From the IMG/VR virus record IMGVR_UViG_3300036944_001037, positions 1 through 32,762 of that record: a DNA stretch of 32,762 nucleotides; one strand, written 5' to 3'. Under the pieces are notes generated by a model that saw only the letters and a program-made list of their open reading frames with translations, was not told where the DNA came from and did not search any database. This document shows, piece after piece, positions 27 through 22,751 of this stretch. The translations under genes and the position numbers were made by a program. This stretch comes from a virus. The stretch's first letter is position 1; each line of letters starts with the position of its first letter.

Positions 27-3000
27 ATGGATAAAATAGTTGTATCAGCATCTGAAACAATCGTAGTAGAAACCGACACTTCCGGCACGGTACTAAGCGG
101 TGCCTTAATTAGTGGTGGCAGTGGCAGTGGTAACATTCGCTTAGCCGAAGCTGATGACGTAGATATGGTAGAGGCCGTTGATGGCTCAGTACCCGTTTAC
201 AATCCAGACACTGCTGAATGGAAAGCTACTAATGTTTTAAATAAGCAAGTAGTTGACGCAGGAACATATACTGCTCCAGGCTCTACCGTAAAAATAAAAA
301 CCTCCAATAATGACGGAGCACCTGCCAGCTTAGTAGCAGGTGAATTAGCATACTCATCTGTTTCCAATAGCACAGACCCAGAAGGCGATAAGCTTTATAT
401 TGGTACAGGACAAGGTAGTCCCGTAGCTGTTGGTGGTAAGTTTTATACTGACTTATTAAATACTACACCAGGTACTGTTACCCCAGGTAAAGCGGTTGTA
501 GTTGACACACAAGGTTCTGTTGACGAACTAACAATCGGCGACGTTAATATAGCCGATAATGCTGTACAAGCAGCAGGAACAAACCAAGATTTAGTTTTAT
601 CTGGGAACGGCACTGGCCAAGTATCTATAGACGGTACCTGGAAATTACCAAACCAGCGAGGTAGCGAAGGTTATGTACTTACCAGCGACGGTGCTGGTAA
701 TACTAGCTGGGACCCAGCAGCAAGCGTATTACTTATTGCTGCCAACACCGGTGCTGATAGCTTAAACCTACTAGAAGATAGTTTAAATTTTAGTGGTATT
801 AACGGCCTAACTACTGAATTTAACCCAAATACAAATACATTAATAGTATCTGCTGTAAATGCTAGCACTGGCGAAAAAGGTGTAGCAAGTTTTGTTGCTG
901 AAGACTTCATTGTAACAAACGGCACAGTTGCAGTTGACCCAGCCACTATTATAAATAAAATAGCTGCACTAGTAGGTGCAGGCTCATTACAAAACAACAT
1001 ATCAGTTAGCTATAACAGCGCAACTGGTAAGCTAGATTTTTCCGTACAAACTGTTGTGGGCCCAACAGGTCCACAAGGTATCCAAGGTATTCAGGGTATC
1101 CAAGGTATTCAAGGCGTTGTAGGCCCTACAGGTGCTCAAGGTGAACAAGGTATTCAAGGTGAGCAGGGCGTTCAGGGTATCCAAGGCGTTGTAGGCCCAA
1201 CAGGCCCAACAGGACCACAAGGTGAACAAGGCGTTCAAGGTGTTACAGGACCAACAGGAGCTGATAGTACAGTAGCAGGCCCAACAGGTGCTCAAGGTGA
1301 GCAAGGCGTTCAAGGTGTGGTTGGCCCTACAGGTGCTCAGGGCGAGCAGGGTATTCAAGGTATTCAAGGTATCCAAGGCGTTACAGGGCCAACAGGTGCT
1401 GACTCTGTAGTCCCAGGACCAACAGGTAGTACGGGTGAGCAGGGTATCCAAGGTATCCAAGGTATCCAAGGCGAACAAGGTATCCAAGGACCAACGGGTC
1501 CACAAGGTGAGCAAGGTATCCAAGGCGTTACAGGCCCAACAGGGGCTGATAGCACCGTAGCGGGTCCAACAGGACCGCAAGGTATTCAAGGCCCAACAGG
1601 TGCCGACTCCGTAGTGCCAGGACCAACAGGTCCAGTAGGCAAAGGTTTCAGAATTGCAAAGACTTATGCCAGTGTTGCAGTACTAGAAGCTGACTTAACT
1701 CCTAGTGGAATTACCAGCGGTGAGTTTGCTATTATTCGCACAGGTTCAATCAATGATCCTGAAAACTCCAGAATGTATGTTTGGGATGGCTCAAACTATA
1801 CTTATGTAAGCGATCTTTCTGGTGAACAAGGTATTGTAGGCCCAACAGGTGCTCAAGGTATTCAAGGCGTTACAGGTCCAACAGGTGCTGATAGCACTGT
1901 TGCAGGACCAACAGGTGCTCAGGGTATTCAAGGCGTTCAAGGTGTAACAGGACCAACAGGTGCCCAGGGTACGCAAGGTGAAACTGGAGCACAAGGTGTT
2001 CAAGGTGTTCAAGGTGATACAGGGCCAACAGGTCCACAGGGTATACAAGGAGAAACTGGAGCCCAAGGCGTTCAAGGTAACACCGGCCCAACAGGAGCTC
2101 AAGGCGATCAGGGTATTCAAGGTATCCAAGGCGTAGTGGGTCCAACAGGCCCACAAGGTATCCAAGGCGTTCAAGGCGAAGTAGGTCCTACAGGCGACCA
2201 GGGTATTCAAGGTATTCAAGGCGTTACAGGTCCAACAGGGGCTCAAGGCGAGACTGGTCTTACAGGTGCTCAAGGCGTTCAAGGTATTCAAGGCGTAGTG
2301 GGTCCAACAGGCCCACAAGGTCCACAAGGTATTCAAGGTGAGCAAGGAGTTGTAGGTCCTACAGGGTCGCAAGGTGCACAAGGTGCACAAGGTGACACAG
2401 GAGCAACAGGTGCTCAAGGTGCTCAGGGTATTCAAGGTGTTACAGGACCAACTGGTGCACAAGGTGACCAAGGTGACCAAGGTATTCAAGGTATTCAGGG
2501 TATTCAAGGTGAGCAGGGCGATACAGGACCAACAGGTCCTCAAGGCGTCCAAGGTATTCAGGGTATTGTAGGGCCAACAGGTGCTCAAGGAGCACAAGGT
2601 ATACAAGGTGAAACTGGTCTAACTGGTGCTCAAGGTGCACAAGGTATTCAAGGTAATACAGGTCCAACAGGGCCACAAGGTGCACAAGGTACTCAGGGTG
2701 TTCAAGGTGATGCTGGACCTCAAGGTCCTACGGGTTCACAAGGTGTTCAAGGTCAGCAGGGCGTACAAGGCGTACAAGGCGTAGCTGGTCCAACAGGTGC
2801 TCAGGGTGCGCAAGGCGATACTGGAGCACAAGGCGTTCAAGGTAATGCAGGTCCAACAGGTCCCCAAGGTGCACAAGGTATTCAGGGTAATACTGGTGCT
2901 CAAGGTCCAACAGGGGCTCAGGGTGTACAAGGTAACCAAGGTGTTCAAGGCGACACTGGAGCACAAGGTGCTCAAGGCCCTACAGGCCCTCAGGGTGTAC

Positions 3001-6000
3001 AAGGTACTCAAGGTTCACAAGGTGTAGCAGGCCCAACAGGTGCTCAAGGCCCACAAGGTAACACTGGCCCTACAGGAGCCGATAGTACTGTAGCAGGTCC
3101 TACAGGTGCTCAGGGTGCTACTGGACCAACAGGTGCTGCATCAACTGTTGCTGGACCAACAGGTCCACAAGGACAAGGCTTCCGTATTTCCAAAGTATAC
3201 GAGAGCGTTGCAGAACTAGATGCTGATACTTCACCAATAGATATTGTTCCAGGCGAGTTTGCAATTATTCGCACAGAGTCAGTTAATAATCCAGAAAACT
3301 CTAGAATATACTTATGGGATGGGGTAACTTACGGTTATGTAAGTGACTTATCTGGTGAACAAGGTATTGTAGGCCCTACTGGTAGTCAAGGTATTCAGGG
3401 CCCAACAGGTGCTACTGGTGCTCAGGGTCCTCAAGGTATTCAGGGCACTGCAGGTGCTAATGGTGCTAACGGTCTTAACGGTAATGATGGAGATACAGGT
3501 CCAACAGGTCCTCAAGGTGCACAAGGTATACAAGGTGAGACAGGTGCTCAAGGTGTTACAGGTCCAACAGGTGCCACAGGTGCACAAGGTGTTGTAGGTC
3601 CAACAGGTGTTCAGGGTGTTCAAGGCGATACTGGTGCCACAGGGCCAACAGGTGCTCAGGGTGAGACAGGTGCTCAAGGTGTTGCAGGCCCTACAGGTCC
3701 ACAAGGTATCCAAGGTACACAAGGTGTTCAAGGCGACACTGGTGCTATTGGAGACACAGGACCAGCAGGCCCACAGGGTATCCAAGGTGAACAAGGTATA
3801 CAAGGCGTTGCAGGTCCTACAGGTGCTCAAGGTATTCAAGGCGATACTGGTGCGCAAGGTATCCAAGGCGTAGCAGGTCCAACAGGTCCACAAGGTGAAG
3901 CTGGTGCTGACTCAACTGTAGCTGGACCAACAGGTGCTCAAGGTGTTGCAGGTCCAACGGGTGCTCAAGGTATTCAAGGTATACAAGGCACTCAAGGTGA
4001 GCAGGGCGACGTAGGTCCAACAGGACCACAAGGCGTTCAAGGCGATACTGGTGCCACAGGACCAACAGGTGCTCAGGGCGTTGTAGGACCAACAGGACCA
4101 CAAGGTGTTCAAGGTACACAAGGTGTGCAGGGAGACCAAGGCATTGCAGGCCCAACAGGGCCACAAGGTGCTCAAGGTACACAAGGTGTGCAGGGCGATA
4201 CTGGCGATACTGGTGCCACCGGACCAACAGGTGCTCAAGGCAGCCAAGGTATTCAAGGTATCCAAGGTGAGACCGGAGATACAGGTCCAACAGGACCACA
4301 AGGTGCTCAGGGTATTCAAGGTACTCAAGGTGACCAAGGCGTAGCTGGCCCTACCGGAGCTCAAGGAGCACAAGGTACACAAGGGGTTAAAGGAGATACT
4401 GGTGAGCAAGGTGTTCAAGGCCCAACAGGACCTCAAGGTGCTCAGGGTATTCAAGGTACTCAAGGCGAACAAGGTGTTCAAGGACCAACCGGTGCTCAGG
4501 GAGCACAGGGCGAAACAGGTGCACAAGGTGCTCAAGGTGTAGCAGGACCAACAGGTCCACAAGGTATTCAAGGCGTTCAAGGTGAAACTGGGGCCCAAGG
4601 TACACAAGGCGTTCAAGGTAACACTGGTCCAACAGGACCACAGGGTGTAGCAGGCCCAACAGGGGCTGATAGCACAGTAGCAGGACCAACAGGTGCTCAA
4701 GGCGTTACAGGACCAACGGGTGCTGCGTCAACAGTAGCGGGTCCAACAGGGCCAAGCGGCCAAGGCTTCAGAATAGCAAAAGTATACTCCAGTGTAGTAG
4801 AACTAGAAGCTGACACTATACCAGTAGATATTGTTCCTGGTGAGTTTGCAATTATCAGAACAGCAACTGAAAACGACTTAGAAAATTCTAGACTTTATCT
4901 TTGGGACGGCGTAGCTTACGCATACGTAAGTGATCTTTCTGGTGAACAAGGTATTGTAGGTCCAACAGGTGCTCAAGGTGTAGCAGGCCCAACAGGTCCG
5001 CAAGGGGCCCAAGGTATTCAAGGTCCAAATGGTGCTAATGGTGCTAACGGACTAAATGGTACTAACGGTACTGATGGTGCCGCAGGGGCTACAGGTGCTC
5101 AAGGAGAAGTAGGCCCTACTGGACCTCAAGGTGTTCAAGGAGACCAAGGCCCGCAAGGTGCTCAAGGTGTTCAAGGTCCAACAGGACCACAAGGTACTCA
5201 GGGTATTCAAGGTACTCAAGGTGTTCAGGGTGAAACTGGACCTACAGGACCTCAGGGATTACAAGGCGAAACTGGAGCTCAAGGCAGTGCTGGTGCTCAA
5301 GGTGTAGCAGGTCCAACAGGTCCTCAAGGTTCCCAGGGTACACAAGGTATCAAAGGAGACACAGGCGATACTGGGGCAGCAGGTCCAACAGGACCACAAG
5401 GTACACAGGGTACTCAAGGTACACAAGGTGTTGCTGGTTCAGCGGGACCAACAGGTGCTCAAGGTGTAGCAGGTGCTCAAGGTACTGCAGGCCCAACAGG
5501 TCCACAAGGTAACACAGGCCCAACAGGTGCTGCATCAACTGTAGCAGGTCCACAAGGCTTACAAGGTGTTGCAGGTCCAACAGGTCCACAAGGTGTTCAG
5601 GGTATTCAGGGTACAGCGGGTGCTACAGGCCCAACAGGTGCCGCGTCAAACGTTGCTGGTCCAACAGGTCCACAAGGTGCAGCGGGTCCAACAGGTGCTG
5701 GTGCTTCACTAACCGTAGTAGAGTACGATGCCAACGGCGACATTCAAACAGTTAGTAACATCAATACTCTTAAGTTTGATGCTGACAGTGGGTTTGACGT
5801 AGTAGATGGTGGTACTGGTGTAGCTAAAATTCAAATGAATTCTACTTTCAAGTACTGGGAAGTAGACGGTCAAACAACTCTAGTAGCTTCTGGACTAGAT
5901 ACTGTTGAGTTTGTTGCTGGTAATGGTATTTCTATTACAACTGATCCTAACGGCTCGCCAAAAAGTATTACTATTAATAGTGAGGCTACTACTGGCGGAA

Positions 6001-6968
6001 CAGTAAACGTAAATAGAAGCTACACAGGTACAGGTTCACAAACTGACTTTACGGTTACCACAGGTACAACAGCTAACTCAGTTATAGTTACTGAGAACGG
6101 TGTAGTGCAAGTACCTAATACTGACTATACTATAAGCGGTACTACACTTACTTTTACTACAGCTCCTCGTAATGGAATAGCTATACAAATTCGTGAGTTA
6201 AGTGGTACGCAAGGTCCAACAGGTCCACAAGGCGACGCAGGAACAACAGGCTCTGTAGGTCCAACAGGTGCTCAAGGTGCTCAAGGTAGTACCGGAGCAG
6301 CAGGTGCTGCAGGTCCAACAGGTCCACAAGGAACCGCAGGTATTGCTGGTACTAATGGAACAACAGGCCCACAAGGTGTAGCAGGTCCAACAGGTCCACA
6401 AGGTGTAGCAGGTCCAACAGGTGCAGACTCAACCGTAGCAGGTCCAACAGGACCTGGGGGTACAGCAGGTACTGCGGGCCCAACAGGCCCGGCAGGTGCA
6501 GCAGGTGCAGATGGTTCTACAGGTCCAACAGGGCCAGGTGTTGCTATAGCCGGTTCCAATACTCAAGTTCAGTTTAACGATAGCGGTGTAGCGGGAGCCA
6601 GTTCCAACTTAGTATTTGATAAAACTACTAATACGCTTACATCCAAAAATATTAGCTTACTTGGTGCGTTTACCGAAACAGTTTATACTATTACTGATGG
6701 TGGTTCAGTAGATATAGACCCAGCAAATGGAACAATTCAACTATGGACACTTGCGGCTAGCAGAACTCCTACAGCTTCTGCTTTTACAAACGGCGAGTCT
6801 ATTACCCTAATGATTAACAGTGGGTCAAATACTATTACATGGACTAGTCTTGCAGTTACGTGGATTGGCGGCAGTGCCCCTACACTGAGTAGTAGCGGGT
6901 ATAATGTTATAGCACTTTGGAAAGCTGGAACAACCATGTATGGTGCACTAATAGGAACAGCAGAATGA
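27..6968 (+). CDS. Giant collagen-like phage tail fibre / virion surface protein (2313 aa)
   Basis: This is a very long virion surface fibre, expected to trimerise through collagen-type G-X-Y repeats. Residues 1 to about 343 are a beta-rich N-terminal part including [13 protein letters not shown] and [10 protein letters not shown], wording common in structural proteins of marine T4-like phages. G-X-Y repeats (mostly GPTGPQG, GAQGVQG, GIQGIQG) fill about 344-537, 604-1049, 1115-1577, 1645-1893 and 2063-2172. They are broken by three copies of one globular module (about 538-600, 1050-1112, 1578-1641) and by [14 protein letters not shown] breaks. A beta-rich segment (about 1894-2062) and a C-terminal domain starting near [11 protein letters not shown], probably a trimerisation cap, complete it. 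The ATG at 27 follows AGAGG and GGTGG stretches. The next gene overlaps its stop as ATGA. The fibre role is inferred from architecture and neighbours. Confidence 0.88.
1640..1828 (+). repeat. Globular insert module, copy 1, in the collagen stalk
   Basis: This encodes about 62 residues: [18 protein letters not shown] at the start, [10 protein letters not shown] in the middle, then [16 protein letters not shown], after which collagen resumes with EQGIVGPTG. It is clearly homologous to the modules at 3174 and 4758. The fold is unknown; beta structure is likely. Confidence 0.85.
3174..3362 (+). repeat. Globular insert module, copy 2, in the collagen stalk
   Basis: Second copy: [19 protein letters not shown], then [19 protein letters not shown], then [16 protein letters not shown], followed by EQGIVGPTG. 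It begins about 512 residues after copy 1. The DNA has diverged from copy 1 while the protein pattern is kept, which suggests selection on the module. Confidence 0.85.
4758..4950 (+). repeat. Globular insert module, copy 3, in the collagen stalk
   Basis: Third copy: [54 protein letters not shown], then EQGIVGPTG. It begins about 528 residues after copy 2, so the three modules are almost evenly spaced along the stalk. Confidence 0.85.
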
Positions 6969-14556: not shown

Positions 14557-14976
14557 ATGTTTTTTATTTTTAAATTTATACCAGACCTATTTTGGCTGGT
14601 ATTGTTAATAGCCGGATTATCCGGCTATTTTCTAAGCCACTTGATTCCGGTAAAAACATACGTTTTACCTATAAAAATTATAAGTGGTGTGGTAGTACTT
14701 TTAACAATTTTTGTTTTTGGCATGTTATACTGCGACAACACCTGGAAAGCGGCGGCTGCTGAGCTTGAAGCCAAAGTACGGGCCGCAGAGGCACAAAGTG
14801 CCGCCACTAATGAAACTATCAAAGAAAAGTTAGTTGTTAAAACTCAAATTATAAAACAACGTGGGGCAGACATAGTACAATACATAGACCGTGAAGTAAC
14901 AAAACACGACGCAGGTTGTGTAATCCCACCAGAGTTTGTTAATGTACATAATCGTGCTGCGGAGCCACCAAAATGA
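14557..14976 (+). CDS. Inner-membrane spanin-like lysis protein (Rz-like)
   Basis: 139 residues. Two hydrophobic segments (about 8-30 and 38-60) are followed by a helical, coiled-coil-prone periplasmic stretch (about 62-115, AAAAELEAKVRAAEAQSAAT onwards) and the ending CVIPPEFVNVHNRAAEPPK, a tail typical of Rz-like i-spanins. It would pair with the lipoprotein encoded next to bridge inner and outer membranes at lysis. The following gene starts inside its stop (ATGA), the usual i-spanin/o-spanin linkage. A single membrane segment is more common in Rz; the second one here is unusual. A perfect hairpin lies within codons about 17-25. Confidence 0.72.
   Translation: MFFIFKFIPDLFWLVLLIAGLSGYFLSHLIPVKTYVLPIKIISGVVVLLTIFVFGMLYCDNTWKAAAAELEAKVRAAEAQSAATNETIKEKLVVKTQIIKQRGADIVQYIDREVTKHDAGCVIPPEFVNVHNRAAEPPK
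14607..14629 (+). terminator. Terminator-like perfect hairpin inside the i-spanin gene
   Basis: AATAGCCGGA (14607-14616), loop TTA, TCCGGCTATT (14620-14629): ten perfect base pairs with a three-base loop, followed by TTC, giving a short T run. It lies about 50 bases into the coding sequence. Whether it ends or slows transcription is not known; it could be an attenuator of lysis gene expression or a chance product of the leucine/glycine codons. Confidence 0.45.
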
Positions 14977-15239
14977 AACTATTAATATTAGTTACCGCAC
15001 TACTTGTTAGCGGATGCTCCACAGTAGTGCCAGTTACACAGCGTTGGCCAGAACCACCTGGCTTACAAAGCCTACAACCGTGTCTTGAGCTTAAAAAACT
15101 TGAAGAATCAGCAACACTTAGTGGCGTAGCTACTACAGTAACCGGTAACTATACCGAATACTACCAGTGTGCTGTTAAGTTAGCTGCATGGCAAGAGTGG
15201 TACGCTAAACAACAAATTATTCACCAAGGACTTCGATGA
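14973..15239 (+). CDS. Outer-membrane spanin-like lipoprotein (Rz1-like)
   Basis: 88 residues. MKLLILVTALLVSGCSTVVP is a lipoprotein signal peptide with lipobox LVSGC (lipidated Cys15). The mature part opens with TQRWPEPPGLQSLQ, Pro-containing as in Rz1 proteins, and carries two more cysteines (CLEL, CAVKL). Together with the preceding gene it forms a two-component spanin pair that fuses inner and outer membranes as the last step of lysis in Gram-negative hosts. The ATG overlaps the i-spanin stop, and the endolysin start overlaps this stop. Confidence 0.75.
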   Translation: MKLLILVTALLVSGCSTVVPVTQRWPEPPGLQSLQPCLELKKLEESATLSGVATTVTGNYTEYYQCAVKLAAWQEWYAKQQIIHQGLR

Positions 15240-15865
15240 CACATCAATTAAGCTATGCTGAATTACAGCAGCTAATACCAAAAAATCCTTACATTAAGCA
15301 GTGGCATAACGCACTAGCACAGCTACTGCCAGACTACGAAATTAATACACCACAGCGAATTGCAGCTTTTATTGCTCAGTGTGCCCATGAAAGTGGCGGA
15401 TTTATTGCACTAAAAGAAAATTTAAACTACAAAGCGGCTACGCTACGTAAAATTTTTCCCAAGTACTTTCCAACGGACGCATTGGCGCAGCAATATGCTG
15501 CGCTGCCGGATAAACAAGCCGCCATTGCTAATTTGGTATACGCAAATCGCATGGGTAATGGTGGTCCTGAAAGTGGTGACGGTTATCGCTATTGTGGGCG
15601 TGGGCTAATTCAGTTAACCGGCAAAGACAACTACTCGTGGTTTGCCGCTAGCTTAGAGATTAGCGTTGAAGAGGCTGCTGAGTACTTAGAAACATTTGAA
15701 GGTGCTGCGCAAAGTGCTTGCTGGTTCTGGGAAACAAACAAGCTAAACCAGTGGGCCGATAAAGGTGATATCCTAACATTAACCAAGCGTATTAATGGTG
15801 GTACTATTGGACTAGAAGATCGCATTAAGCATTATGAGCATGCCCTGCATGTGCTAGGAGTATAA
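15236..15865 (+). CDS. Endolysin, glycoside hydrolase family 19 (chitinase-like)
   Basis: 209 residues, a single catalytic domain without a cell-wall-binding module or signal peptide, the usual size for GH19 endolysins of Gram-negative phages. AQCAHESGGF holds the likely general acid Glu52. ENLNY places Glu61 nine residues later, the same spacing as the catalytic acids reported for the SPN1S endolysin. GNGGPESGDGYRYCGRGLIQ and LTGKDNY are the family's substrate-cleft block. It cleaves the sugar backbone of peptidoglycan. The ATG overlaps the o-spanin stop and follows AAGGA at 5 bases. No holin is obvious next to it; candidates are the small membrane proteins further downstream. Confidence 0.92.
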   Translation: MTHQLSYAELQQLIPKNPYIKQWHNALAQLLPDYEINTPQRIAAFIAQCAHESGGFIALKENLNYKAATLRKIFPKYFPTDALAQQYAALPDKQAAIANLVYANRMGNGGPESGDGYRYCGRGLIQLTGKDNYSWFAASLEISVEEAAEYLETFEGAAQSACWFWETNKLNQWADKGDILTLTKRINGGTIGLEDRIKHYEHALHVLGV

Positions 15866-15866
15866 C

Positions 15867-16349
15867 ATGATTAAAAAGTTTTTAGTTGGTTTAAGTATAT
15901 TAGTTTCAGGTAGCTTACTAGCTCAGTCTGACCCTATTGTTACTGATTCTACTTCACGCAGTACAAGTGCTAGCACTAGTAGTAGCGTTAGCGATACCAC
16001 CGTTAAATCTCCACCACCAACAGCAGTAGCGCCTGCTATAACTGTTATTAACAGCGACGTGTGTGCTGTTGGATACTCTGGAGCAGCTCAAACTCAGATT
16101 TTAGGTATTTCTTTTGGAGCTACCACAACAGACAAAAACTGCGAAAGACTTAAACTAGCCAGGTCAATATACGACATGGGTATGAAAGTAGCTGCAGTTG
16201 CGGTTATGTGTCAAGACGAACGAGTATTTTCAGCAATGATAAACGCAGGAACACCTTGTCCAGTAGATGGAAAGATTGGTGAGCAAGCTCGTGAAATCTG
16301 GGAAGCTGAACCAGCACGTCAACCACAAAAAGTAAAAAGCAAGGACTAA
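15867..16349 (+). CDS. Conserved exported phage protein, four cysteines
   Basis: 160 residues. MIKKFLVGLSILVSGSLLAQ is a clear Sec signal peptide, cleaved near LLAQ-SD. A Ser/Thr-rich and Pro-rich spacer (about 22-58) follows. Then comes a compact domain with CAVGYSGAAQTQILGISFG, NCERLKLARSIYDMGMKVAA, MCQDERVFSAMINAGTPCP and a charged tail; four cysteines could form two disulfides in the periplasm. I recall similar domains in other environmental phage proteins but know of no assigned function. The ATG follows AGGAG one base after the endolysin stop. Lysis support, superinfection exclusion or a virion role are all possible. Confidence 0.65.
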   Translation: MIKKFLVGLSILVSGSLLAQSDPIVTDSTSRSTSASTSSSVSDTTVKSPPPTAVAPAITVINSDVCAVGYSGAAQTQILGISFGATTTDKNCERLKLARSIYDMGMKVAAVAVMCQDERVFSAMINAGTPCPVDGKIGEQAREIWEAEPARQPQKVKSKD

Positions 16350-16352
16350 GCC

Positions 16353-18317
16353 GTGAAAACGCTGGTTAAAGTCCTGCTAAGTTGCCTGCTAAGCTATTCA
16401 CTAGCACATGCACAAATAGTGACAGTTCCGATTCCTGGTAGTCCACTGTCATTAAATGTTATAGCTAACCCACAACCACTACAAAACATAAATACTAATC
16501 CAGCAGCCACTAGGTACCAACTGTGGGATGATGGCTCTGCCAATGTTCCACTACCTTTTACGTTTCCGTTTTTTGATAGAACATTTAATGATTCTACTAT
16601 GTACAGCAACGGAGCAGTACAGTTTGGGCCCTATAATTCTGGAAATAATACTTTTTGTTGTAGTGGGATTACTATTGATCGAAATACTCCAGCTGCATAT
16701 AACTACAGTATTTTAATGATGCAGACTGATATGTATGGGTCAACTGGATCTAATCATTACTCTCTTGGCACTGCCAATACTATGACTTATGGTTGGTACG
16801 GTGTCGAGCGTTTAGGAGATTCTGCCAATAAAACCAGCTTTGAGCTAAAAATTGATAGTTCTGGTGGTATAGACATGCGTTGGACTGGTGCGCTAATTAC
16901 CATGAATACTCCAGCTATTGGTGTAATTGGAGATGCTTCACGAGGCGAGTTTGCAATTATACAGCAAGGTAGTACTGGTCAGGTGGTAAATATTCCAGGA
17001 TTGACTCAAGTGACTACTGGTCCTGGTGTTGAGGTAGTTGTTGATCCTTGTGTATCAAATCCACTACATGCCCCGACTTGTGCTGGGTATCAAGCAGCTT
17101 ATCTAATACAGCAATGTTCTGCTAATCCACTATATTCAACTTCTTGCTCAGGATACGAGTCTGCGTATACAACTAGTCAATGTGCTATTAATCCACTATA
17201 CAGTACATCTTGTAGCGGGTATCAAAATGCCTACTACCAGCAGCAGTGTTCAATAAACCCATTGTATGATGTAAATTGCCCTGGATATGCAAGAGCGTAC
17301 TTAGATCAACAGTGCTCTTTGAACCCAATGTATTCTACTACGTGTTCTGGTTACGCTACTGCGTATAAAGCCCAGCAGTGTTCAATAAATGCTTTATATG
17401 CTACGGACTGTCCTGGATACGCCACTGCTTATAAAAATCAGCAGTGTTCAATAAGTGCTTTATATGCAACCGACTGTCCTGGATATGCCACTGCGTATAA
17501 AACTCAGCAATGTTCAATAAATGCCTTATATGCTACGGACTGTCCTGGATACGATGTTGCTTATTTAAAATCTAAGTGTATTATTGACTCACTATATAGT
17601 AATAAGTGTGAAGGTTATGCTACCGCTTATGCTATAAAGTACTTAACTAATACTAGTAACTCTGCAGCTGTAAATTCTGCACTATCAAATACTGCAGCTA
17701 CTAAAGCAAACGACCCGGCTAATACTGTTGTTGCTACTGATGCACCTAGTACTACTATATCCACGGACGGTAGTGTTTCTACTGGAGTATCTCCAACTGG
17801 TGATGTAAACGTTGATAAAGCAATATCAACAAAACCAGCATCAGCTAGTGGAGGTTCCCCTGCAGCTCCTGTACAATTAGTATCTGCACCACCGGCCGCA
17901 CCTGCACCACCAGCACAAAAACAGGAAGCAAAACCAGCAGGCCCTCAGCAAACACAATCTGCTGATGCGGGAGGTCCTAAGCCTGCACCAACTGCTCGTC
18001 AAGAAGTACAAGCCAAACGTGAAGCTGCTGCAAAAGCCAAAGCTGTAGAGTCGGGTAAAGCTTTAGCTGCTAGTATAGGTAAAGCTAATGATATGGAGCA
18101 GCAAAAACAGGTGCAAAATCTAGTTATTGAAGCTATGGGGTATACTCCTGGTTTTGATACATACTCAAAAGCAATTTTACAAGATGCTGTTGCGTATAAA
18201 CCGTTCACAATTTACGGCAGTCAAAAAACCATAGATAACCGTAGTAATTTAAAGCTATTTAGCGGTAATGATTCGCTACATAATCAAATGGTAGAATTAC
18301 AGTATAAAGGAAAGTAA
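16353..18317 (+). CDS. Exported protein with nine 22-residue cysteine repeats
   Basis: 654 residues, GTG start at 16353 after AAGGA. Signal peptide MKTLVKVLLSCLLSYSLAHA. Residues about 22-228 form a beta-rich N-terminal domain (LPFTFPFFDRTFNDSTMYSN, GAVQFGPYN). Residues about 233-430 hold nine tandem repeats of the form C-(S/A)-x-N-(P/A)-L-Y-x3-C-x-G-Y-x2-A-Y-x2-Q-Q, two cysteines each. A low-complexity Ala/Pro/Thr linker with AAPAPPAQKQ follows (about 431-570), then a helical charged stretch and a C-terminal domain ending MVELQYKGK. Secretion and regular Cys pairs suggest a disulfide-braced rod outside the cytoplasm. Function unknown; a virion or cell-surface role is possible. Confidence 0.7.
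   Translation: MKTLVKVLLSCLLSYSLAHAQIVTVPIPGSPLSLNVIANPQPLQNINTNPAATRYQLWDDGSANVPLPFTFPFFDRTFNDSTMYSNGAVQFGPYNSGNNTFCCSGITIDRNTPAAYNYSILMMQTDMYGSTGSNHYSLGTANTMTYGWYGVERLGDSANKTSFELKIDSSGGIDMRWTGALITMNTPAIGVIGDASRGEFAIIQQGSTGQVVNIPGLTQVTTGPGVEVVVDPCVSNPLHAPTCAGYQAAYLIQQCSANPLYSTSCSGYESAYTTSQCAINPLYSTSCSGYQNAYYQQQCSINPLYDVNCPGYARAYLDQQCSLNPMYSTTCSGYATAYKAQQCSINALYATDCPGYATAYKNQQCSISALYATDCPGYATAYKTQQCSINALYATDCPGYDVAYLKSKCIIDSLYSNKCEGYATAYAIKYLTNTSNSAAVNSALSNTAATKANDPANTVVATDAPSTTISTDGSVSTGVSPTGDVNVDKAISTKPASASGGSPAAPVQLVSAPPAAPAPPAQKQEAKPAGPQQTQSADAGGPKPAPTARQEVQAKREAAAKAKAVESGKALAASIGKANDMEQQKQVQNLVIEAMGYTPGFDTYSKAILQDAVAYKPFTIYGSQKTIDNRSNLKLFSGNDSLHNQMVELQYKGK
17049..17642 (+). repeat. Nine tandem 66-bp repeats
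   Basis: Nine in-frame repeat units of 22 codons. Units six to eight (about 17379-17576) are almost identical at DNA level, centred on words such as CAGTGTTCAATAAATGC and GACTGTCCTGGATA, while the outer units have diverged. The pattern fits recent duplication in the middle of an older array. Confidence 0.8.
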
Positions 18318-18319
18318 TT

Positions 18320-18886
18320 ATGTCCGAAGAAATCAAAAACGTCAACGCTAAAATTGACAGCATGGAAGCTGCTACAAAAAAGTATGCTAGTAAAGATACT
18401 GTTATTAGTATTGGTGGATATGAGTTTACTCCTGCCAAGCTTATGGTTGCGTTTACCTTAGTAAGCTCCCTTCTTGGTGGGTTATATGGAGCCTTTGAAG
18501 TATACAAAGACTACCAAGGAATGAAAAAGAAAATTGCAGAGTACGTATCACCAGACTTATCAGAATTTGATAAGCGCCTGGCAGTAATTGAAGAAAACTC
18601 TTCCAAAACAACTGACTATACTCGTGATATTAAAACAGATTTAAAAGCAGATATTCGTCGTAATGAGACACTAACGGAACAAATTGAACGTGCTGTTAAG
18701 CTAACTCAACGTGAAGCGGACCAAGACTTAAAGCTTTTAACTAAAAACGTCGAACAATCAATTCAGCGTACTCGCGACGATATGGATAAGTTAAAACGAG
18801 ATACTGATACTAAGATTGAAAAGCTAAATAGCTCAGTAGATTCTAAGATTCAGAAAGCTATTGATAACCCACTAGCAGGTAAATAA
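18320..18886 (+). CDS. Membrane-anchored coiled-coil protein
   Basis: 188 residues; the ATG follows AAGGAAAG. The N-terminus is helical and charged (MSEEIKNVNAKIDSMEAATK). One hydrophobic segment lies at about 37-58 (PAKLMVAFTLVSSLLGGLYG). After it comes a long charged helical stretch, about 65-188, rich in K, E, D and R with heptad-like spacing (SEFDKRLAVIEENS, LTEQIERAVKLTQREADQDL, RTRDDMDKLKRDTDTKIEKL), ending IQKAIDNPLAGK. This looks like a membrane anchor with a coiled coil; no family is recognised. The next gene starts within its stop (TAATG). A holin-associated or envelope role is speculative. Confidence 0.65.
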   Translation: MSEEIKNVNAKIDSMEAATKKYASKDTVISIGGYEFTPAKLMVAFTLVSSLLGGLYGAFEVYKDYQGMKKKIAEYVSPDLSEFDKRLAVIEENSSKTTDYTRDIKTDLKADIRRNETLTEQIERAVKLTQREADQDLKLLTKNVEQSIQRTRDDMDKLKRDTDTKIEKLNSSVDSKIQKAIDNPLAGK

Positions 18887-19173
18887 TGAATGATTTAAAA
18901 ATGTTTAAATGGTTAGGACTGCTACTACTAATACCTATTGCTTTAGCATACTGTAGTGAAGACAGATTTCGGTACCCTTGCCAAAACCCAGACAACTGGG
19001 ATAAAGCGATATGTCAAAAACCACAGTGCGATGTAACGCGAACCTGTCCGGAACACGTATTTAAAGGTCAGCGCGATCCTCGACTAGGTCCGCCCGAAGA
19101 AGCACAGAATATTCTAGCTAAACAACAACTTGGTCTAGCTAATAAACCAGAGGTAAAATGTAATGTCAAATAA
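18886..19173 (+). CDS. Small exported or lipoprotein-like cysteine-rich phage protein
   Basis: 95 residues. MNDLKMFKWLGLLLLIPIAL ends in ALAYC, which resembles a lipobox with Cys23 but has Tyr at -1, where Gly, Ala or Ser is usual, so lipidation is uncertain. The mature part contains FRYPCQNPDNWDKAICQKPQ and CDVTRTCPEHVFKGQRDP, with closely spaced cysteines suggesting disulfides. I recall similar sequences in environmental phages, without known function. The ATG overlaps the preceding stop. The next gene overlaps its 3' end by 11 bases. Confidence 0.62.
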   Translation: MNDLKMFKWLGLLLLIPIALAYCSEDRFRYPCQNPDNWDKAICQKPQCDVTRTCPEHVFKGQRDPRLGPPEEAQNILAKQQLGLANKPEVKCNVK

Positions 19174-19621
19174 TAACTTTCTATACACAGACGAGCAGTT
19201 AATGGCTCGCTTAAAGTTTTTCATAGGTGTATGTCTAGCACTAACATTAACTGGCATTGTTTTCGTAGTACTGTACTCACTTATTTTCGTAACACAGCCA
19301 CTAAATGCAATTAGTCCTATTGACCAAAAATTCTTTGAACTAATTGTACCAATTGCTACTTTTCTTACAGGAACACTAAGTGGTATTATGTTAGCAGGTG
19401 GATCAAAAGAAGAAGTCGATGCTACATTGGCCATGATGAAACAAGCTCAAGACAATGCAGCAGCAGCTGCAAAAACATCGTACATTCCTAAGCCTGAGCC
19501 AGTATTAGCTCCACAGCCAAGTTTTAGTACTACAGCGGGATTTAATGGAACTTCTATTGCAGAAGTACGAATGGTTAATGGCAAGCCAGCACCTCAACCA
19601 GCACCTCAACCGGAGATTTGA
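19163..19621 (+). CDS. Two-TM membrane protein (holin candidate)
   Basis: 152 residues. The ATG at 19163 lies within the previous gene and follows AGAGG. Two hydrophobic segments: about 17-42 (FFIGVCLALTLTGIVFVVLY) and about 60-80 (LIVPIATFLTGTLSGIMLAG). The C-terminal part is Ala/Gln-rich, then Pro-rich (KPAPQPAPQPEI). Size, two membrane segments and proximity to the lysis cassette make it a holin candidate, but there is no recognisable holin motif, and the long C-terminal tail is unusual for a holin. The next start follows directly after the stop. Confidence 0.6.
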   Translation: MSNNNFLYTDEQLMARLKFFIGVCLALTLTGIVFVVLYSLIFVTQPLNAISPIDQKFFELIVPIATFLTGTLSGIMLAGGSKEEVDATLAMMKQAQDNAAAAAKTSYIPKPEPVLAPQPSFSTTAGFNGTSIAEVRMVNGKPAPQPAPQPEI

Positions 19622-19825
19622 ATGAAAAAAGTAATTTGGGCCGTATTAATGGCAGCGGGAATTTTTGCAATAACTTATAATAACCCAACGTTTGCCGCTG
19701 AAACTAAAAAAGTTTGTGTAGATCAAACTGATGTTAAAACTAAAAAAGTTAAGCAAGTGTGTAAAGACGTAAAAGTACACAAGAAACTTGAGGGAACCAA
19801 AGTTCCTGATAAAAAGGCTAAGTAA
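19622..19825 (+). CDS. Small exported lysine-rich protein
   Basis: 67 residues. MKKVIWAVLMAAGIFAITYN leads into a signal-peptidase-type site near TFAAETKK. The mature peptide of about 42 residues is strongly basic with two cysteines (KVCVDQTDVKTKKVKQVCKD), which could form one disulfide. The repeated TKKV spacing is notable. It starts immediately after the previous stop. Function unknown; it is the last gene before a terminator-like dyad and the phoH promoter. A small basic exported peptide could act on the envelope, but this is speculation. Confidence 0.6.
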   Translation: MKKVIWAVLMAAGIFAITYNNPTFAAETKKVCVDQTDVKTKKVKQVCKDVKVHKKLEGTKVPDKKAK

Positions 19826-19833
19826 ATTTTCAA

Positions 19834-19862
19834 TTGACACCTAGTAAATCTCGTGGTACAAT
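19834..19862 (+). promoter_or_regulatory. Sigma70-type promoter for phoH
   Basis: -35 TTGACA at 19834-19839 and -10 TACAAT at 19857-19862, with a 17-base spacer. The predicted start lies near 19869, about 35 bases before the phoH ATG. The -10 box lies partly within a dyad (19846-19881). Confidence 0.85.
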
Positions 19863-19883
19863 TATGCGTTACCCGAGATTTTT
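19846..19883 (+). terminator. Terminator-like dyad overlapping the phoH promoter
   Basis: AAATCTCG-T-GGTA (19846-19858) pairs with TACC-CGAGATTT (19870-19881): 12 pairs with one bulged T and an 11-base loop, followed by a run of T to 19883. Transcripts arriving from upstream would form the whole hairpin and could terminate. Transcripts from the local promoter would start inside it and lack the left arm. It may also act as an operator. Confidence 0.6.
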
Positions 19884-19903
19884 ATAAACCAACAAGGAAG
19901 TAC

Positions 19904-20662
19904 ATGGCAAGAAATAGTGGTAAATCACATCGCACCTTTCCAGCAAAGAAGTCTAGTAATCGACCTTCGCAAGAAGAAAAGTCTAGACTGCGTCAAAGTA
20001 AGCATGAGGGCGTAGAAGAACCTCAGCCTCAACGAAACTATACCTTTAAAGAAGTTCAACCACTAAACTTTGTACAAGGTGAATACCTAGATGCAATTGA
20101 GAATAATGACGTTATATTTGGAATAGGTAGTGCAGGCACTGGTAAAACTTTTATTGCAGCAAATTATGCTGCACGCGAACTTTACTATAAACGAGTAGAC
20201 AAAGTTATACTAACGAGACCTAACATTGAAACAGGTCGCGGACTAGGTTTCCTACCGGGTACATTAGAAGAAAAGTATGCCCCGTATCTACTACCTTTTG
20301 ATTCAATATTTACTCGTGCACTTGGAAAAGGGTTTTACGAATACTGTTTAAAGTCAAAAGATATTGACCCTACACCCCTAGGCTTTTTACGAGGAACTAC
20401 ATTTGATAACTGCATTGTATTAGTTGACGAAGCACAAAACTGTACTCGTGAAGAAATGAAAATGCTCTTATCACGAATTGGTAAAAATTGTAAGATGATT
20501 TTTAGTGGCGATACAGAACAAGCCGACATTCCAGATAGTGGGCTTGAAGATGCTGTAGAGCGCCTTGAGAATATAGATGGAATTGAAGTAATTGAATTCC
20601 TAGATGAAGATATTGTACGTAGTAAGATGTGTAAACAGATTATTATGGCTTATAGGAATTAA
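19904..20662 (+). CDS. phoH: PhoH-family ATPase
   Basis: 252 residues. The ATG at 19904 follows AAGGAAG; an upstream in-frame GTG at 19853 lies inside the promoter and is rejected. A basic N-terminal tail (about 1-50) precedes the P-loop domain: Walker A GSAGTGKT (75-82), then LTRPNIETGRGLGFLPGTLE, a block typical of PhoH, Walker B IVLVDE (171-176) followed by AQN, and a SGDTEQ sensor-like motif. PhoH-like ATPases are common in marine and other environmental phages; their role is unsettled, with RNA handling or phosphate-stress links proposed. The gene has its own promoter and is followed after one base by the next gene. Confidence 0.93.
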   Translation: MARNSGKSHRTFPAKKSSNRPSQEEKSRLRQSKHEGVEEPQPQRNYTFKEVQPLNFVQGEYLDAIENNDVIFGIGSAGTGKTFIAANYAARELYYKRVDKVILTRPNIETGRGLGFLPGTLEEKYAPYLLPFDSIFTRALGKGFYEYCLKSKDIDPTPLGFLRGTTFDNCIVLVDEAQNCTREEMKMLLSRIGKNCKMIFSGDTEQADIPDSGLEDAVERLENIDGIEVIEFLDEDIVRSKMCKQIIMAYRN

Positions 20663-21337: not shown

Positions 21338-21775
21338 TTATATGTCCATGCTTGAGTACAGCATCCATCCGTGTTTGCGATGTGCATCAATACGTTCACT
21401 TAAAAAGGCACTTAAACCATGTTCAGCATATTGCTCTGCAAGAGCATATGCTTTTAACAATTCTTCGTGTACTTTTCCGTTATCTACGTATAGTGTGCGT
21501 AACATTTCATTTTTTGGTAATACTTCCAGCGTGTCAGTAATGCTGGAGTGTTCAGCTAGTTGTGAAAAGCTAGCAGGTACAAAACAACGTACTGCACGTA
21601 CGCGTTCAGCAAAGTCGTCTAGCTCGTCATCTACTTCATCATAAATTTTACCAAATAGCTCGTGATATTGCATAAAATCCGGGCCAGTTACATTCCAGTG
21701 AAAGTTTTCGGCTTTTACTAAGAACGCATAAGTTGTTGCAAAGGCGTTTTTAACCGCCATTTTTAAGTCTTCCAT
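21338..21775 (-). CDS. Dps/ferritin-like protein
   Basis: 145 residues. The ferroxidase pattern of Dps is present: NFHWNVTGPDF (His26), QYHELF (His38), then LDDFAERVRA (Asp53, Glu57), with the His-12-His-15-Asp-4-Glu spacing of bacterial Dps. Dps proteins form 12-subunit shells that oxidise and store iron and protect DNA. The basic N-terminal tail of E. coli Dps is absent, so direct DNA binding is less likely. The start (ATG 21775) follows AGGAAAATAAA; an internal ATG at 21760 is an alternative. It lies 1 base after the BclA-like gene and is last in its unit. Phage-encoded Dps or ferritin-like proteins are uncommon; host protection from oxidative stress during infection is inferred. Confidence 0.88.
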   Translation of the reverse strand: MEDLKMAVKNAFATTYAFLVKAENFHWNVTGPDFMQYHELFGKIYDEVDDELDDFAERVRAVRCFVPASFSQLAEHSSITDTLEVLPKNEMLRTLYVDNGKVHEELLKAYALAEQYAEHGLSAFLSERIDAHRKHGWMLYSSMDI

Positions 21776-21776
21776 T

Positions 21777-22751
21777 TTATTTTCCTGAAACTATAGCCCA
21801 TTGAGTGCCGTTAAATATTACAGTAACACAGTCATTAGAATCTAAAGTTTTGCTGTCATCACCATCAATTTGCTGTTCCCCGGTAGCTGTCAAGGTTATG
21901 TTGCCATTTACTTGATTTTTTACTACATAAGTTTTACCTAATACACCTACGGGCAACTTAATAGTTATGCCTTTAGTATTAGCGCCAATATAGTAATCGC
22001 TAGGTGATGCTGTGTAGCTAGTATTAGCTATTTTTACTTGAACTAGTCCCAAGGCATTACTTGTAGGTAGTTCAATAACTGGAGTAGATATACCACTATT
22101 GGCTGCTGCTAAAGCAACAGATGGAGTCAACTCAATAATTACAAGATGTGCAGAAGCCGGTCTTGTGCCTCCAGCATTGGGTGTAATTGTTAGTGCAGCA
22201 GCATTTCCTGCCGGGTTGCGTAAAGTTAAAACAGAGTTTAGTACATTAGTTGTAATAATTACTGATCCAGTAATTTGACTTGTACCTGTTGCACGCCCCG
22301 AAACAGTATAAGCTACGTCAACACCATTTAGTGTTAATATAAGTTGTCCAGCTTCGTCTACACTAACTTGAAATTGTACTAGGTATGAGGCAACTTCTGA
22401 TAAGTTAAAAGAGCTAGGAGATATGCGTGTAATAGTTGTGGCCGACGTAGGCCCATCTACAGGAAACTGCACATCTGCGCCTGGAGCAACTGTTGCAGCA
22501 TTATCTGGTGGCATTAGCGCAACAAAGTCAGCAAAGTTTGAGGTAGCAGCAGGCCCTGTTGGTCCAGCAGGACCTGTTGGGCCTGCAATTCCTTGGGGAC
22601 CAGTTGGACCGGCTGGACCGGCCGGACCAGGAGGTCCTGGCGGTCCGGAAATAGTGTTGTTTATAAATAAGTCGTTATCGCTACAAATCCCAGGAAATAA
22701 TGGAAACAAGGGAAGGGGCGGTAGTAACATTTGATTTTGTGTTTGATACAT
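21777..22751 (-). CDS. BclA-like collagen/jelly-roll surface protein
   Basis: 324 residues. A short N-terminal segment (MYQTQNQMLLPPLPLFPLFP) precedes a collagen stretch (about 36-68, GPPGPPGPAGPAGP onwards). Next is a domain (about 69-205) with FADFVALMPPDNAATVAPGA, SPSSFNLSEVASYLVQFQVS, EAGQLILTLNGVD and VSGRATGTSQITGSV. These match the C1q/TNF-like head of BclA-type exosporium glycoproteins and related Firmicutes collagen-like proteins. A second beta region (about 235-324, DYYIGANTKGITIKLPVG, KTYVVKNQVNG) ends the protein. The ATG follows GGAGA. Probably a trimeric virion decoration or adhesin. The head domain suggests gene exchange with Firmicutes or their phages. Confidence 0.82.
   Translation of the reverse strand: MYQTQNQMLLPPLPLFPLFPGICSDNDLFINNTISGPPGPPGPAGPAGPTGPQGIAGPTGPAGPTGPAATSNFADFVALMPPDNAATVAPGADVQFPVDGPTSATTITRISPSSFNLSEVASYLVQFQVSVDEAGQLILTLNGVDVAYTVSGRATGTSQITGSVIITTNVLNSVLTLRNPAGNAAALTITPNAGGTRPASAHLVIIELTPSVALAAANSGISTPVIELPTSNALGLVQVKIANTSYTASPSDYYIGANTKGITIKLPVGVLGKTYVVKNQVNGNITLTATGEQQIDGDDSKTLDSNDCVTVIFNGTQWAIVSGK

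Follow-up and report, generated by a model that had tools for sequence, protein, structure and literature searches.

The six envelope-directed genes that stand in one row in the virus record IMGVR_UViG_3300036944_001037 (IMG/VR) fall into two distinct sets, the final part of a lysis cluster and a trio of genes, which we call module B (g4-g5-g6) and module A (g1-g2-g3), respectively. The trio is an undescribed set whose genes co-occur in many different viruses of oceans and lakes. The whole record, here called the window (32,762 nucleotides, 32.8 kb), is classed as linear, carries tail genes, and is a fragment of an uncultured tailed-phage genome. The initial annotation had regarded the block as one unexplained set that could act in lysis timing, superinfection exclusion or an external structure. 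A single six-gene system is rejected on the distribution of g1-g2-g3 versus g4-g5-g6 in relatives: each module is kept together, whereas the block as a whole is scattered, and in the window two modules of different distribution abut.

The block consists of six consecutive open reading frames (ORFs) on the plus strand at positions 15867–19825, flanked by genes for a GH19 endolysin (15236–15865) and phoH (19853–20662), with an Rz-like, an Rz1-like and the endolysin gene preceding g1 in this order. The coordinates and the export or membrane signals initially annotated were confirmed from the window ORFs, and export-type N-termini and membrane segments support the proposed targeting to the envelope. 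A strongly hydrophobic segment was found in nine of the 32 window genes, five of which belong to the block (hypergeometric P of about 0.003, computed by hand). The other four include Rz and Rz1 just upstream, and in one of the four the segment is an internal stretch of a LamG-like protein. The earlier descriptions of g2 as a Cys-repeat protein (in our reading, an export-like N-terminus and nine 22-residue repeats with two cysteines each), of g3 as an anchored coiled coil (in our reading, a transmembrane (TM) segment at residues 41–59, the rest coiled-coil-like) and of g5 as a two-TM protein all agree with our reading of the sequences.

A search with g2 gave 19 loci, and a g1 profile gave at least 597 confirmed viral stretches, the best 80 of which were kept; 24 further g1 loci were in genome assemblies, metagenome bins or single-cell genomes according to their titles. 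The resulting 131 g1 loci comprise 18 from the g2 search, 11 phage records and 102 from g1 scans. L003, L026 and L033, which lack g1, were removed from this set, only contigs fetched twice (L035, L036) were dropped, and many of the loci are close relatives. In all 91 g1 loci with at least 3.5 kb of downstream sequence, g3 was found downstream of g1 on the same strand; with at least 2 kb or 3 kb downstream, this was the case in 101 of 103 (misses L113 and L136) and 96 of 97 loci, respectively. The 91 loci form 72 groups at 90% g1 identity, and all 67 of them that were fetched via g1 and stood outside the g3-profile training also carry g3 (weakest out-of-sample match, L122, E = 0.0042). The distances among g1 and among g3 proteins were correlated (r = 0.834, n = 99, 0 of 999 permutations as high), and a homolog of the window g2 was detected in 73 of the 91 trio loci. 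In the g1-based set of more than 130 loci, g4 occurred in only 17, two of them without g1. Hence, within the fetched flanks, the trio mostly travels without g4-g6. Judged by this distribution, g1-g2-g3 is a conserved unit separate from g4-g6.

The arrangement of the trio was found in the Pelagibacter phages Baldr, HTVC023P, HTVC202P, HTVC115P, HTVC033P and Mosig, in an uncultured autographivirus, in the roseophages CRP-207 and CRP-810, and in two Manatee Spring phages. Its carriers include five podovirus-named pelagiphage isolates, the kyanovirus Mosig and two roseophages, alongside uncultured phages whose gene contexts differ. One of the Manatee Spring phages, MW202675, has a single row consisting of g1, a gene for a helical protein at the g2 position, g3, g4, g5 and a gene annotated as chitinase. 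Bins labeled Euryarchaeota (L118), Woesearchaeota (L131) and Actinomycetota (L120) also hold g1; these are probably misbinned phage contigs. Titles and abstracts found by our literature searches gave no sign of the trio, passages of the HTVC027P transcriptome paper (PMC12753301) do not name it, and the same kind of search found no virion proteomics for phages that carry it. The spread of the trio suggests that it probably does something general to infected aquatic bacteria, which can be tested because isolated phages (HTVC023P, HTVC033P, Mosig, CRP-207) carry it.

Module B has a different setting. A profile search of IMG/VR with g5 returned at least 572 confirmed relatives, the best 80 of which were analyzed. 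In all 77 loci with at least 400 bp upstream of g5, g4 was located immediately 5' of g5. Within 4.5 kb of g5, the best 80 loci contained g4 (78), g6 (67), a GH19 endolysin (63), Rz1 (55) and Rz (49), but g1 in only 13 and g3 in 19 cases. The endolysin gene abuts g4 (gap ≤80 bp) in 45 of the 80 loci; the trio lies between the two in five, other genes or gaps in 14, and the 16 loci without a testable endolysin-g4 pair were kept in the total. Because of the neighboring endolysin, Rz and Rz1 genes and the direct endolysin-g4 junctions, we place g4-g5-g6 at the distal end of the lysis cassette; by gene order, it is the distal half of a cassette Rz-Rz1-GH19 endolysin-g4-g5-g6. Splitting the block thus puts g4-g5, with its at least 572 confirmed g5 relatives, into a lysis context.

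Two TM segments were detected in the window g5 and in all 60 relatives scanned, which together with the lysis neighbors makes g5 a candidate class-II-like holin or holin partner. It matched no named holin family: the window g5 was assigned only to phrog_25359 (unknown function) and to no Pfam family, and the Pfam matches of its relatives were below the cut-off and not to holins. Of 60 cassettes, 41 encode another small two-TM protein after g5, a rival for the holin role that speaks against g5 itself. One such rival candidate is a conserved protein of 72 amino acids (SSKRVITFLAF...DSMMYIV...EKF) encoded just 3' of g5 in L165 (5439–5657); no relative of it was present among the window ORFs. The initial view of g4 as a Cys-rich, lipoprotein-like protein stands in its first half, as g4 is Cys-rich with a TM segment at residues 6–24. 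A lipoprotein was rejected, with a strict lipobox in none of 27 cassette relatives scanned; lipobox-like starts were seen by eye in two distant g4 relatives (L026, L033). Likewise, g6 is small and basic as annotated, and the hydrophobic start expected of an exported protein falls below the threshold in the window, though it passes in 38 of 59 relatives. A weak match links g6 to the T4-type spackle family (E = 0.035). We suggest that g5 would act as a class-II-like holin or holin partner and that g4 and g6 may be small envelope proteins that tune it.

Export-type N-termini, scored by a home-made rule and not by SignalP, were found in 121 of 128 g1 and 79 of 86 g2 proteins, compared with 108 of 682 flanking called genes. 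The g1 protein, initially annotated as exported with four cysteines, indeed combines a hydrophobic, export-type N-terminus with a low-confidence stretch and a domain whose four cysteines are invariant in relatives. Its AlphaFold2 model reached a predicted local distance difference test (pLDDT) score of 70.7 overall and above 90 in residues 101–150. A role of g1 as an outer-membrane hairpin, an idea taken from alternating residues, is conjectural. The CRP-810 g1 (L032, 5779–6534) is annotated as ‘OmpA family protein’ and the g3-position genes of both roseophages (L031, 3292–3873; L032, 7165–7587) as ‘lysozyme’; these labels look doubtful because PHROGs shows no such family for these proteins. 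The models of g1 and g2 had no Foldseek match in PDB at E ≤ 0.001, and profile searches of solved structures gave nothing convincing with either protein. Three BFVD matches at E ≤ 0.001 were all called uncharacterised. VIA-align 2 gave its best Z of 5.3 over 52 residues in the helical C-terminal part of g2 and a Z of 2.2 for g1, and given these scores either protein may have a known fold.

In the window, g2 (mean AlphaFold2 pLDDT 59.9) consists of a beta head, repeats predicted to be helical, a low-confidence linker and a C-terminus common to its relatives. The repeats are nine exact 22-residue units, seven caught by a pattern and two read from the printed sequence. The window-type head was matched by 31 ORFs; in other relatives, domains of unrelated types replace or duplicate it while the stalk and C-terminus are retained, and the number of repeats differs, some relatives having none. 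By these comparisons g2 is modular, with a variable head, a stalk or linker, and a C-terminus that is constant within a clade. Pelagiphage proteins at the g2 position contain a long acidic stretch, and in two records the protein at this position is annotated as ‘putative carbohydrate binding domain containing’. One membrane segment was detected in 97 of 101 g3 proteins, whose coiled-coil form was recognized by eye and presumably faces the periplasm, and an NPL motif lies near the C-terminal end in 98 of 101, compared with six of 682 flanking genes. HTVC115P has two g3-type genes (L025, 9803–10165 and 10508–10936), one of each type, and phrog_20984 (unknown function) holds one of its g3-position proteins. 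In a second clade, genes for three additional proteins that look exported are inserted between g2 and g3, namely b2 (two of whose cysteines are conserved), b3 and b4, which belong to no recognized family (L071, 8366–9637, and relatives; 41, 39 and 36 ORFs). A tblastn search of a phage collection with g2, b2 and b3 gave no match.

Based on this anatomy, the trio probably builds an anchored, adhesin-like structure in the envelope of the infected cell. The inner membrane would anchor g3, whose coiled coil would extend into the periplasm, the C-terminus of g2 would dock onto g3, and g2 would present its exchangeable head on a disulfide-rich stalk or a long linker, with g1 as an oxidised partner in the same compartment. 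We favor an adhesin or decoy over an enzyme because an anchor and a spacer are combined with an exchangeable head that has a conserved docking end. Most likely, the head would bind a glycan of the envelope or a surface structure that incoming phages use; fewer phages would then adsorb to, or enter, the infected cell and its debris, which would amount to superinfection exclusion or readsorption block. The combined account, in which module B completes the lysis cassette and the trio forms an inner-membrane-anchored adhesin-like complex for exclusion or readsorption block, is tentative and in our estimate falls somewhat short of an even chance.

Several observations weigh against this account. 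With an anchor in the inner membrane, the head would stay periplasmic unless something passed through the outer membrane. The window g2 head had no match in PDB (best Foldseek E = 0.36), and glycan binding by the head is therefore a guess. In 18 of the 91 trio loci, including ten phage records (all but HTVC115P), no homolog of the window g2 was detected, and ‘g2’ rests there on position and export signal. The short and long g3 types were aligned on position by hand, and only the C-terminal NP is nearly invariant between them. The agreement between the type of the g2 C-terminus and the type of g3 (74 loci with both window types, 11 with neither, one with g3 only and none with g2 only) counts in favor of the account but is confounded by kinship; a matching of partners is hinted at by HTVC115P, which has a window-type g2 end and a window-type g3 besides the short one. 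Finally, a GH19-type match was found in 13 of 43 records searched, and in seven of these the trio is at most 1.3 kb away, which also fits a lysis role (distances were calculated manually from the contig ranges; G001 and G002 appear to be the same virus, and the CRP-207 match may be a virion protein).

The trio might be a lysis accessory, in which g3 and g2 span the envelope as a third system of the spanin type, with the head bound to peptidoglycan or the outer membrane, and aid outer-membrane rupture or set lysis timing. Lysis neighbors of the trio are common: besides the seven nearby GH19-type matches, a Pfam 3TM holin is the neighbor of g1 in Mosig and immediately follows g3 in G017 and G025, an annotated lysozyme gene is located just 5' of the trio in HTVC033P, and an annotated M15 peptidase gene lies about 1.9 kb after g1 in HTVC023P. 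Directly after g3, 12 of 101 loci (L017, 5033–5737, and 11 others; many are closely related) have a gene whose representative belongs to Peptidase_S11 (D-Ala-D-Ala carboxypeptidase family), and the ‘lysozyme’ label of the roseophage g3-position genes points the same way, though PHROGs has no lysozyme family for them. ORFs of HTVC033P and MedDCM that resembled the 3TM holin by eye were unsupported by Pfam (PF11351) or PHROGs and left uncounted. However, Rz and Rz1 are already present in the window, swappable heads are unlike spanins, the GH19-type match is 8–40 kb from the trio in six of the 13 records, and the Pfam 3TM holin of CRP-810 lies at a distance of about 23 kb. A long minus-strand gene with a phage DNA polymerase representative is the neighbor on the upstream side in 21 loci. 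Because of these neighbors and the distant GH19 matches, a strict lysis role fails to explain all contexts of the trio, and we consider this explanation rather unlikely, ranking it directly behind exclusion or readsorption block.

The variable head, stalk and constant base of g2 are also fiber-like, and the three proteins could be virion or appendage parts (an adsorption fiber) whose N-termini merely resemble signal peptides. The trio is near TerL in Baldr and HTVC202P and near structural-annotated genes in HTVC115P, and the CRP-207 g3 weakly matches a tape-measure family (E = 0.0015), as coiled coils do. The frequencies of export-type N-termini in g1 and g2 relative to flanking genes, the membrane segment of g3 and the four invariant cysteines of g1 argue against virion parts, which we regard as improbable and place third. 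Least probable, though not negligible, is an auxiliary surface organelle of the phage, resembling a pilus or curli, which would make cells aggregate or change the surface of the host. It would accommodate the three exported genes added in one clade, and pelagiphages are reported to carry curli genes in passages of PMC9599517. A curli system was rejected, as CsgG was absent from all 40 trio records, many of them fragments (the control matched in four of 14 genomes). A chaperone-usher pilus, suggested by the look of the clade-specific proteins, fared no better: none of 30 records, again many fragments, contained an usher above the cut-off (one sub-threshold match in G013, E = 7.6e-4), and hhalign comparisons with FimC and FimA, the only chaperone and pilin used, gave probabilities of 0.2 and 0.4 (of 100), with no convincing Pfam family for these proteins.

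Table 1 Features of the lysis cassette and of modules A and B in the window.
Feature	Position	Strand	Basis
Rz-like inner-membrane spanin, start of lysis cassette	14557..14976	+	phrog_2536, phrog_8821 Rz-like, weak (E 0.0054, 0.012); phrog_4952 ‘signal peptide motif’ E 4.7e-11; hydrophobic segments 1-19, 36-54
Rz1-like outer-membrane spanin	14973..15239	+	Pfam LysC E 1.4e-5, 25.4 bits (just below 27-bit cut-off); phrog_456 Rz-like E 1.1e-5
GH19 endolysin	15236..15865	+	phrog_181 endolysin E 1.4e-73
g1, module A, exported four-Cys protein (C66, C92, C115, C131)	15867..16349	+	phrog_20531 (unknown function) E 6.4e-17
g2, module A, modular exported protein, GTG start	16353..18317	+	19 loci; 105-ORF family in fetched loci
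g2 head, beta-rich, residues 42-205	16476..16967	+	AlphaFold2 pLDDT blocks mostly 60-89
g2 stalk, nine 22-residue repeats, two Cys each, residues 233-430	17049..17642	+	predicted helical repeats, pLDDT mostly 63-91
g2 C-terminus, constant in freshwater-type relatives, ends LHNQMVELQYKGK	18105..18314	+	59 ORFs match, near-identical ones included
g3, module A, TM 41-59, coiled-coil-like, C-terminal NPLAGK	18320..18886	+	NPL in last 10 residues, 98/101 g3
g4, module B, membrane-anchored, Cys-rich, motif RY.CQ.P......C..P.C.....C	18886..19173	+	directly 5' of g5, 77/77 loci
g5, module B, two-TM, FVTQP motif, holin candidate	19163..19621	+	phrog_25359 (unknown function) E 1.6e-17
g6, module B, small, basic, exported-looking	19622..19825	+	relative ≤4.5 kb from g5 in 67/80 loci

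Elsewhere in the window, positions 27–6968 encode a collagen-like tail protein of 2313 amino acids, and a second collagen-like gene is located on the opposite strand at 21777–22751. The minus-strand gene at 21338–21775 is Dps-like by eye (phrog_3636, ‘DNA binding protein’).

The PHROGs entries that hold g1 (phrog_20531), g5 (phrog_25359) and the HTVC115P g3-position protein (phrog_20984) carry no function, and the closest comparisons are therefore with systems of similar layout. In lambda-type lysis cassettes of phages of Gram-negative bacteria, Rz/Rz1, endolysin and holin genes are grouped. Module B resembles these in following Rz, Rz1 and a GH19 endolysin and in including a small two-TM protein, but none of its three proteins matches a named family of holins or antiholins, and g5 has an extra C-terminal tail. 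The i-spanins (Rz) consist of an N-terminal TM segment and a periplasmic coiled coil, an architecture predicted for g3 as well. In contrast to the i-spanins, the partner genes of g3 encode exported proteins without a conserved N-terminal cysteine, and the window has a genuine Rz/Rz1 pair besides. The first cysteine of g1 is the invariant residue 66 inside the domain, no cysteine column is conserved near the start of g2, and the alignments, which were not complemented by a lipobox scan of g1 or g2, revealed no outer-membrane lipoprotein partner for g3. Like the type VIII secretion system/curli module described in passages of PMC9599517, the trio is an exported multigene set shared across pelagiphage families, but it lacks CsgG in the 40 records searched. 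In T4, holin T and antiholin RI form a lysis-inhibition pair (PMC11413866). T has one TM helix and g5 has two, but small exported proteins encoded next to membrane lysis proteins might regulate the holin in module B, too.

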